This document shows, one piece after another, positions 10,236 to 28,395 of a DNA stretch of 64,000 nucleotides. The first letter of the stretch is position 1. Each line of letters opens with the position of its first letter. A program made the translations under genes and the position numbers. The notes beneath the pieces are model-generated. The model had not been told where the DNA came from, ran no database searches, and worked only from the letters and a program-made list of their open reading frames with translations. Source of the DNA: Poseidonibacter lekithochrous (lineage in GTDB: Bacteria; Campylobacterota; Campylobacteria; Campylobacterales; Arcobacteraceae); the NCBI RefSeq assembly GCF_013283835.1, contig NZ_CP054052.1:1922001-1986000 (forward strand), written 5' to 3'.

Positions 10236-10310
10236 TGGATGGGGTAGAAGGATTCGAACCTTCGAATGACGGCACCAAAAGCCGTTGCCTTACCACTTGG
10301 CGATACCCCA
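10236..10310 (-). tRNA. tRNA-Gln (TTG)
   Basis: 75 nt including CCA. The acceptor stem TGGGGTA/TACCCCA is perfect and the anticodon arm is ACGGCTTTTGGTGCCGT with TTG. It is the first gene of the tRNA transcript. This is the tRNA that a GltX2-type synthetase would be expected to charge in this lineage. Confidence 0.95.
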
Positions 10311-24472: not shown

Positions 24473-24745
24473 TTAGAAAGCTAAACTTCTTAAAAAAGTT
24501 TCTAAAAATATTAATGCAAAGATTAAAATAATTGGCGCTAAGTCCATACCACCAAATACAGTTGGTATATATTTTCTAATTAATGCATAAGCAGGTTCAG
24601 TAAGTCTATATAACATTTGAACTATTGGGTTATATGGATCTGGCTTAACCCATGATAATACTGCTGAAATAATAATCACCCATTTGTATAAAAAGATAAT
24701 TGTTAGAACTACAGTAAAAATTGATGTTAATAAAGCATCTATCAT
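24473..24745 (-). CDS. YggT-family membrane protein
   Basis: 90 aa with two hydrophobic helices separated by the family motif [20 protein letters not shown]. YggT proteins are small inner-membrane proteins of unclear role, linked to osmotic tolerance and cell division in some bacteria. The start overlaps the gltX-like stop by 4 bases. Confidence 0.92.
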
Positions 24746-26010
24746 TTTGCAATTTCTCCTAAATAGTTTTTGATCAATGGATAAATTTCAGAAATTTCTG
24801 CGCCATCTTCTCTACCTGTTAAAATATATTTTAATGGCTTTAATAAATTTTCATTTTTAAAACCAGTTTTTTCTATAAGATATTTTTCAAGTTCCATATA
24901 ATTATCAAGATAAGGTGCATCTTGAATACAAAGTTTTAATTCTACAAATTCTTTTTCAAAACCTTCACAAGTGATTTTAGGAGCAAAGATTAAATCAATT
25001 TTTGATTTAATTTCTTTAATTGTAGACGATTCATTTAAAAGAATCTTTCCTAATTTACCAATATCAGTATCAGCAAATCCTAAAATTTTTGATAATCTCA
25101 TATCATCAAATTTTTCTAAATGAATTTTGTTAATAGCTTTTAATTTATTCATATCAAAGTTAACAGATTCTTTTGAAATATTTTTAATATCAAACCATTC
25201 TATAGCTTCTTCTAAAGTGAATATTTCACTAGGTGTTTCATTTCCTAGTAATACTAAATAATTTGCAATAGCACTAGGAATAAAACCATCATCAATCAAA
25301 GACTGAACTGTAATATCACTATTAGTAATACTTGATAAGTGAGCATAACTTATCTCTTTATCATATCCTAAAGATTTTCTAATAAAAATTTGATTAGCAG
25401 TATTTGAAATATGTTTTTCATCTCTAATAACAGTTGAAATATCTAAAATCATATCATCAACAGCAGCAGCATAATTTGCTGTTGGAGTTTTATCATGATT
25501 TAAAATAATAAAAGAATCCATATCAGAAGTAGAGTAGTTTAATTCGCCTTTTATTGAATCAACAAAGTTAATATCCTCTTTCGATTCTTTAATCCTAATT
25601 GTAAAAGGCGAATTTGTATTAAGAATTGTTTCATCAGATAATGTAGCACAAAAACCATCATATTTGTTTGCTTTACCATTAGCTTTAGCTTCTTCCTCTA
25701 ACTCTTTAAGTTTAGCGTCACCACAAAAACAAGAAAATGCTTTTTTCTTAGCTAATAATTGCATTACCATTTTTTGATGGTATTTTAATGAATCACTTTG
25801 ATGTACGGCTCTTTCATAATCAATTGAAAAAAGACTTAATATTTGTAATATTTCTTTATCTTTACCTTCAATAATTTTTTCACCATCAGTATCTTCAATT
25901 CTTACAATTAAACCTTCATTTAATTGCTTTGATACAATATAGTTTAAAATAGCAACTCTTAGGTCACCAATATTCATATCACCTGTTGGACTTGGTGCAA
26001 ATCTTAACAA
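24742..26010 (-). CDS. gltX: Glutamyl-tRNA synthetase-like protein with altered catalytic motifs
   Basis: 422 aa, clearly homologous end to end to GltX2-type glutamyl-tRNA synthetases (starts [18 protein letters not shown]). The class I signatures are damaged. The HIGH motif reads NIGD, and the RIEDTD stretch continues GEKII instead of a basic run. The TYN-type Tyr region reads TPTANYAAA, and the RGEDH-type motif reads RDEKH. The KMSKS loop is missing: [15 protein letters not shown] goes straight to the helix that normally follows it, about 11 residues short. The frame is intact and the C-terminal half is well kept. It may have lost aminoacylation or taken another role. It sits between an M16-like gene and yggT. 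Confidence 0.85.
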
Positions 26011-26012
26011 AT

Positions 26013-27299
26013 TTATTTCCTTACTATTGAGAATGTTAAATTATTAATCTCTTTATGAGATTTTATATATTCGTTTAAATCATCAAGTTTTAAATCTTGA
26101 ATCTTTTCTAACTCTAATGTAGAGTGATCTTGCTCTAGACCTCTATAATAAAGAGTAAATGCTCTATTTAATCTTTGAGATAATGTTTCACTTCTTAAAG
26201 GTTCACTTCCAGTTAAAAAGTTCTTCGCAGCATCTAGTTCATCTTGCGTAACACCTTTTTTAACAAACTGTGCAACTAATTCATTAACTAAATGTTGAGC
26301 TTCTTTCGCTGTTTCATTTTTTGTTTGTAAGTATCCTGAGAAGAAAGAATGTGATTTATTAATAGATACATAACCATAAGCACTATAAGCTAAACCTCTT
26401 TTAACCCTAATTTCTTCCATTAGTCTTGAACCAAAACCAGAGCCACCTAAAATAAATGAAGCGACTTTAGCTTTATAAGCATCAGAATCTTTAACATCAA
26501 CATTATATGAACTTCCAAAATAAATATACGCTTGCTGAGTATCTTTAATTAAAGTTTCTTCTTGTTTTTTAGAGTTAAGAGATATTTTTGACATCTCTTG
26601 TTTTTTTCCAGCTTCTAAAGTTTTTAATAAAGGAGTAATTAGTTTTGTAAATTCTTTATAATCAAAGTCACCGCCTGCAACAATAATTAAATTGTTAAGG
26701 TTAATAGTTTTATTTAAAAACTTTTTTACATCTTTTAATTCAATTTTAGAAAGAGAATCAATTGTTCCAGAAGAAGGATTCTCTAAAGGAGTATCTTTGA
26801 AAAGTGTAGATTTCAATAAGTTTTTAGCTGTATAATCAAAATCATTTTCTTTTCTTTTAAGAGCACCAATTTGAATAGTTTTTAGTTTATTCAATGTGTC
26901 TTCACTATAATTTGGAGACTTTAAAAGTTTTGTTAGTAATTTAATAGATTTTTCTGATACATCTTTTAAATTAGATAGTTCAATAACAAAAGTTTCAAAA
27001 CCATTAGATGCAGTTAAAGAAATAGCATTTTCTTCTAACTTTTGAGCAAATTCAGTTGAACCTAACTCTTTAGTTCCTTCATTTAAAAGTCTTGAAGATA
27101 AACTAACTAAACCACTTTTATTTTTATCTTGAATATATCCTGAATTTTGAAAAACTAATTGAAGGTTTAGTGTTGGTAAACTTTTTTGTTCTTCAAAAAC
27201 AACAGGTACTTTTATATCATTTATTTCAATATGCTTTATAATAGCACTCATTAAACTTCCTTGTATAACTAGTAATGCAAATAAGTATTTTTTTAACAT
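26013..27299 (-). CDS. M16-family peptidase-like protein, probably non-catalytic
   Basis: 428 aa with an N-terminal signal peptide (about 1-18), so periplasmic. It has the two-lobe M16 layout, with [26 protein letters not shown] in the second half. The zinc motif HxxEH, expected in the first lobe, is replaced by SSRLLNEGT, so it cannot bind zinc in the normal way. Related Campylobacterota also carry such non-catalytic M16 proteins. Three bases separate it from the gltX-like gene. Confidence 0.9.
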
Positions 27300-27303
27300 A
27301 GGT

Positions 27304-28395
27304 CTAGAACCTTTCTAAAATCTCGTATGCTGTATTTCTTTTTGCTGGGTTTTCACCAACATCCTTAATTAGCCTGATCATCTCATCTTGATTCATTCTA
27401 TTTGAAGCTCCTGCTGCTTTAACAACATTCTCTTCCATCATAGTTGAACCTAAATCATTTGCTCCAAATTTTAAAGCCATTTGCCCAATATAAGAGCCTT
27501 GAGTTACCCAAGAACTTTGCATGTTCATAAAATTATCTAAATAAATTCTAGAAACTGCAAGTAATCTTAAATATCTATTTGAAGATTGGGGTTTAATATC
27601 TGGTATTTCAGCTAATAATTTTGTATTAGCTCCTTGAAATGACCACATAATAAATGCTCTAAATCCACCTGATTCATCTTGAAGTTTTCTAAGTAACTCC
27701 CAATGTTCAATAATCTCTTCATCTGTTTCAACAGTTCCAAACATCATTGTAGCAGTAGTTTTCATACCAATTGAATGAGCAAGTCTATGAACTTCTATCC
27801 AATCTTCACTATCCATTTTATTAGGAGCAATAATATCTCTTACTCTATCTGATAAAATTTCAGCTCCAGCTCCTGGAATTGAACTTAGACCTTTAGCTTG
27901 TAATCTTTTTAAAACTTCTAAAATAGATATTTTAGATACTTTTGAAATGTATTTTACTTCAATAGCTGAAAAACCATGAATAGTAATTTGAGGATACTTA
28001 GTATGAATATGAGAAACTAATTCTTCATAATAATCAATTTTAAGTTTAGGATGAACACCACCTTGGAATAAAATCTGAGTCCCACCAATTTCAAGTAATT
28101 CATCAATCTTTTGGTCAATTTCATCAAATTTTAATACATAAGAGTCTTCATCTCGTCCATGTCTATAAAAAGCACAAAACTTACAATCAACCCAACATAC
28201 ATTAGTATAGTTAATATTTCTATCAACAATAAAAGATGTAGTTTTTTCTGGATGTAATTGAGATTTTTTTTCTGTTGCTAATTCTCCTAATTCTAAAAGA
28301 GAAGCATTTTTAATTAAATCTAATGCTTCTTCATTTGTAATTCTTCTATTAAGAATTTCTCTGTCAATTTTATTTTCATTCATTATTTTTGTCAT
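27304..28395 (-). CDS. mqnC: Cyclic dehypoxanthinyl futalosine synthase (menaquinone, futalosine pathway)
   Basis: 363 aa radical-SAM enzyme. The cluster motif is CWVDCKFCAF (CxxxCxxC), and FQGGVHP and GAGAEILSDRVRDII are typical for MqnC. It cyclises dehypoxanthine futalosine on the way to menaquinone, the route used by Campylobacterota in place of the Men pathway. It lies one base after bamA. The start has a poor ribosome site; the second Met (residue 5) is an alternative. Confidence 0.94.
   Translation of the reverse strand: MTKIMNENKIDREILNRRITNEEALDLIKNASLLELGELATEKKSQLHPEKTTSFIVDRNINYTNVCWVDCKFCAFYRHGRDEDSYVLKFDEIDQKIDELLEIGGTQILFQGGVHPKLKIDYYEELVSHIHTKYPQITIHGFSAIEVKYISKVSKISILEVLKRLQAKGLSSIPGAGAEILSDRVRDIIAPNKMDSEDWIEVHRLAHSIGMKTTATMMFGTVETDEEIIEHWELLRKLQDESGGFRAFIMWSFQGANTKLLAEIPDIKPQSSNRYLRLLAVSRIYLDNFMNMQSSWVTQGSYIGQMALKFGANDLGSTMMEENVVKAAGASNRMNQDEMIRLIKDVGENPAKRNTAYEILERF

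Follow-up and report, generated by a model that had tools for sequence, protein, structure and literature searches.

HisZ, the HisRS-like regulatory subunit of HisG, carries a synthetase fold without adenylation activity and has a retained function, as described in the available part of a 2022 review of synthetase duplicates (PMC9437257). It belongs to class II, is the paralogue of a retained enzyme and has a known partner. GluQRS (YadB), the sole GluRS paralogue entered in the available part of that review, is likewise GluRS-derived and non-canonical, but it is active and lacks the anticodon-binding half. For epsilon-proteobacteria, Dasgupta and Basu (2014) found GlnRS and GluRS2 together in 6 of 10 cases and raised the possibility that the GlnRS has no function (PMC3927822); glnS-positive Mesorhizobium genomes are also named there. 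We encountered the same co-occurrence here, together with a loss of GluRS2 motifs that the available portion of their paper does not report. In the literature searched we found neither a link between yggT and gltX nor a description of a dead GluRS2.

The window analyzed here, a 64,000-nucleotide stretch of the Poseidonibacter lekithochrous genome, holds a gltX2-derived gene on its minus strand (24742–26010) that encodes a predicted catalytically dead glutamyl-tRNA synthetase 2 of 422 residues. Unlike HisZ, this protein belongs to class I. Here the original tRNA-Gln enzyme itself appears to have gone dead after being replaced, and to have done so several times. In contrast to GluQRS, the window GltX2 is full-length with its C-terminal half, keeps the anticodon-binding region and has lost the activity motifs; it scores 134.6 bits against the GluQRS profile, below the cut-off of 276.7. 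With active GluRS2 it shares the fold, a yggT neighbor found across the order and a score above the cut-off of the gltX_bact profile TIGR00464 (323 bits against 290); the Pfam model of the GluRS catalytic domain, PF00749, also finds it (4e-53). It departs from active GluRS2 in its lost HIGH, RGEDH and KMSKS motifs, its altered anticodon-helix residues and an acidity about 10 units greater.

Alignment to intact GltX2 bears out what the initial annotation had read from the window, namely NIGD for HIGH, RDEKH for RGEDH, an in-frame KMSKS deletion of about 11 residues and an undamaged frame of 422 codons. The frame is open from its TTG start to a TGA stop that overlaps the ATG of yggT. The former HIGH motif (residues 11–17; 25960–25980, minus strand) reads DMNIGDL where intact relatives have DMHIGNL, and the former RGEDH motif (residues 196–200; 25411–25425, minus strand) reads RDEKH, aligned as IRDEKH with IRGEDH. 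The KMSKS loop has been removed at a junction between N230 and S231 (25318–25323, minus strand), so that alignment with the intact GltX2 of close relatives yields YAHLSSITN, a gap of 11 residues that hold KMSKR in intact orthologs, and SDITVQSL. The C-terminal motif of active GluRS2, LKGKxLFxPLR, is absent as well. Sequencing error can be dismissed as the source of these changes, because the substitutions and the deletion recur in G095, a relative with 94% identity.

A further question is which enzyme charges tRNA-Gln. The initial annotation had placed a tRNA-Gln in the window, and it is there (anticodon TTG; 10236–10310, minus strand), the putative former substrate of GltX2. It had also proposed searching the genome, which is complete in a single contig of 3.57 Mb, for a second gltX, glnS and gatCAB; the search returned an intact GltX1 (HIGG and KLSKR), a GlnRS-YqeY fusion and gatB. 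The fusion lies outside the window, unlinked to gltX2 (C1:2536678–2538243), scores above the glnS cut-off and has intact motifs (FPHIGHA, VMSKR). These motifs and an omega of 0.048 contradict the published guess of a non-functional enzyme and point to GlnRS as the working tRNA-Gln enzyme in these bacteria. GatCAB also provides a route to asparagine, and since a profile search found no asnS above the cut-off in the genus of the window genome, GatCAB is presumably retained there for that purpose.

We examined whether motif loss follows glnS across Campylobacterales. The Arcobacteraceae sample comprised 104 genomes, with glnS above cut-off in 60 and gltX2 in nearly all, and GltX2 proteins were also taken from other Campylobacterales families, including 80 further glnS-positive genomes. 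Where GltX2 could be read in a glnS-negative genome (69 cases), all motifs were kept in 68, with the reservation that the absence of glnS cannot be certain in incomplete metagenome-assembled genomes (MAGs). The lone exception, with a dead GltX2, is a 74%-complete MAG (G077, locus L074), from whose assembly glnS may be missing. Among glnS-positive genomes, by comparison, at least one motif was damaged in 108 of 119 and all three in 91; the 11 with intact GltX2 are presumably recent glnS gains. This pattern (108/119 versus 1/69) is far beyond chance, and dead copies are spread over six families and 26 genera. When the motif columns were left out and every row was included, 7.4 phylogenetically independent pairs went in the same direction and none in the opposite one (median p ~0.008).

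The GltX2 tree of Arcobacteraceae requires four to six separate motif losses, a count that depends on GltX2's own tree, with some long branches, rather than on a species tree. Deletion lengths in the aligned proteins vary between lineages, which also favors repeated loss. Genus g2 contains both states, with glnS-negative members whose GltX2 is intact (L039, L050) next to a glnS-positive clade in which motif loss is partial (L040 and further loci of the genus).

Despite the loss of motifs, the dead proteins are under selection. Pairwise codon maximum likelihood on 23 dead pairs gave omega values of 0.046–0.275 (median 0.12), all of which reject omega 1. For intact GltX2 pairs the value was 0.033; omega in the dead copies is thus three to four times higher, and part of the dead protein is therefore relaxed. 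For the window gene paired with G095, which shares its deletion, omega was 0.049; GlnRS and GltX1 of the same pair gave 0.048 and 0.027. Drift over the distance separating this pair would give ~25 stops, and none was observed. Frames are open in 109 dead copies, at lengths of 380–439 residues. An AlphaFold2 model of the window GltX2, built from an alignment of 67 relatives, had a mean pLDDT of 93.3, and its best matches in the PDB were all GluRS. The window protein thus combines, as HisZ does, a synthetase fold, lost catalytic motifs and purifying selection. The initial annotation had raised two alternatives, a move of aminoacylation to another enzyme with a new role for this protein, or gene decay; the first is supported by the intact GlnRS-YqeY, by motif loss that tracks glnS and by strong purifying selection. 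The GltX2 alignment over Arcobacteraceae that it had called for places the motif loss in many relatives, and their dead proteins are under purifying selection. We regard conservation of a catalytically dead GluRS2 by selection after replacement by GlnRS as well supported and very probably correct.

The distribution of lost and kept residues suggests what has been discarded. Dead copies have lost P6, G10, H13, G15, N16, T41, G197, D199 and KMSKR, and in the C-terminal LKGKxLFxPLR motif G397, K398 and F401 are mostly replaced, with K398 turned to Glu in 52% of dead copies in Arcobacteraceae and 76% in other families. From established GluRS structures we take the first group to be the ATP site and the C-terminal helix to be an anticodon contact. 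Mean net charge falls from -3.3 in intact proteins to -13.7 in dead ones of Arcobacteraceae and -16.3 in those of other families. Kept residues include R3, R18, D185, D186, M187, Y216 and the zinc-type cysteines C94, C96 and C121 of the acceptor-binding (CP) domain (25648–25731, minus strand), the cysteines being retained in 100% of dead Arcobacteraceae copies. The whole acceptor-binding domain has nevertheless been deleted in frame in one Arcobacteraceae genome (G071) and in several dead copies of family f6. Loci with this in-frame deletion of the acceptor-binding/zinc domain and a conserved remainder include L260 (1210–2256), L234 and L236. Judged from these sequences, dead GltX2 has probably lost aminoacylation and would bind tRNA weakly.

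One segment stands apart. A helical stretch of residues 300–324 (25039–25113, minus strand), corresponding to 311–335 in the intact protein of G010, is the one region whose constraint has not relaxed in the dead proteins: its ratio of between-family identity in dead versus intact proteins is 1.05, against 0.51–0.96 elsewhere. A consensus near LSK-LGFAD-DIGKLAK is common to dead copies and intact relatives of the same families, with a weaker match in families f10, f12, f15 and f18.

We propose that Campylobacterales GltX2 was a protein with two jobs. The first would be to make Glu-tRNA-Gln for GatCAB. The second would be non-catalytic and depend on the body of the fold, above all on the helix (300–324) that opens the anticodon-binding half. 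Horizontal gain of GlnRS-YqeY would then have allowed direct charging of tRNA-Gln, leaving the first job useless and perhaps harmful, as GltX2 would keep making and holding Glu-tRNA-Gln. The ATP site (HIGH, RGEDH, KMSKS) and the anticodon contacts would have disappeared in several independent events, with the rest preserved by selection for the second job. We consider this explanation, in which a pre-existing function was kept rather than a new one gained, the probable one. The second job may be that of a protein scaffold or regulator. A broader version, in which all Campylobacterota GltX2 carry a second, non-catalytic function located in the helix at ~300–324 and tied to yggT, is a conjecture to which we give somewhat less than even weight. 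If it is true, GlnRS gain exposed a hidden job of GltX2, and Helicobacter and Campylobacter, whose GltX2 is active, may have a bifunctional enzyme too.

The most constant companion of dead gltX2 is yggT, a membrane-protein gene (24473–24745, minus strand) whose ATG overlaps the gltX2 stop as ATGA. It lies directly 3' of every dead gltX2 with a readable 3' flank, whatever lies upstream, and the ATGA-type overlap is present in 101 of 108 dead copies. The arrangement persists across six families. In the window, an M16-family peptidase gene (26013–27299, minus strand), which precedes gltX2 in most Arcobacteraceae, and a radical-SAM gene of mqnC/CofH type farther upstream (27304–28395, minus strand) belong to the same run. 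As partner of dead GltX2 we favor the protein encoded by the overlapping yggT, or the pathway in which it acts, although we hold this identification only tentatively.

Among 20 glnS-positive genomes first scored as lacking GltX2, 8 proved to have a dead copy after all, highly diverged and placed upstream of yggT. About 11 glnS-positive genomes outside Arcobacteraceae truly lack the gene and most of them retain yggT; the second job is therefore dispensable in some backgrounds. Joint loss of yggT with gltX2 was considered and rejected, with yggT kept in 18 of the 20. Missing GatCAB does not account for GltX2 loss either: gatB is present in 79 of 80 glnS-positive genomes outside Arcobacteraceae, with and without GltX2.

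Taken together, these genomes repeat one natural experiment with an essential enzyme: a rival gene arrives by horizontal transfer, and the old synthetase, instead of simply being discarded, loses its chemistry but persists in most genomes. The pattern shows where in a synthetase a second, hidden function may be located. It also has a practical consequence, in that profile-based annotation would label more than 100 apparently dead proteins "glutamate--tRNA ligase".

Among rivals to the two-job explanation, a continued role in the tRNA machinery fares best, yet we consider it unlikely. Dead GltX2 could serve GlnRS as an accessory tRNA-Gln binder, or could be a scaffold for a GatCAB-AspRS asparagine transamidosome. 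The predicted retention of the synthetase fold is compatible with either, as are the conservation of GatB and the position of glnS, which adjoins gltX2 in several families and shares one operon with it in f20. However, GatB occurs also where GltX2 is gone, and does not distinguish genomes that kept GltX2 from those that lost it. The shift in net charge from -3 to about -15, the frequent Glu in place of the anticodon-helix lysine and the absence of the whole acceptor-binding domain from some dead copies make tRNA binding unlikely as the retained job, and less likely than when the initial annotation suggested it as a role. As for the placement of glnS, the two genes are divergent in f16 and f6, and in parts of Arcobacteraceae glnS is 3 kb from gltX2 or adjoins it. 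Acquired glnS thus came to lie beside gltX2 repeatedly, in varying orientation (L134, L144 and others). A GlnRS-GltX2 operon is not a general rule, being confined to some families.

Less probable still is that dead GltX2 senses glutamate or serves as a regulatory subunit, in the manner of HisZ and histidine, and has kept its Glu pocket without ATP. Among dead Arcobacteraceae copies 100% retain R3 and 95% retain S7, as a sensor would predict. The pocket is not uniformly conserved, however, because other residues drift: Y178 is kept in 71%/46% and R196 in 77%/65% of copies, and the window protein has A at 178.

It is very doubtful that the frame has been kept only through translational coupling to the downstream yggT. 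The ATGA overlap and the invariable position of yggT are what such coupling would lead one to expect, and the ancestral adjacency could be simple translational coupling. But coupling requires an open frame rather than conserved amino acids, whereas constraint at the protein level is strong in nearly all regions, and some glnS-positive genomes have yggT without gltX2.

Weakest of all is a pseudogene in slow decay, redundant since GlnRS arrived, which we consider extremely improbable and which the initial annotation had entertained: an omega above that of intact GltX2, the disappearance of the gene from about 11 glnS-positive genomes and one MAG (G072) with a gltX2-like stretch carrying 32 stops speak for it, but near-neutral selection, stops and frameshifts are not what the window gene displays, and decay is ruled out by the omega of the window pair, which is the same as for GlnRS, by the missing stops and the open frames of the other dead copies, by the unchanged operon position and by a fold predicted with high confidence. 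In G072 itself, contig C290 carries adjoining gltX2-like and glnS-like stretches that are both rich in stops, so that they are either two genuine pseudogenes or the result of damage to the contig.
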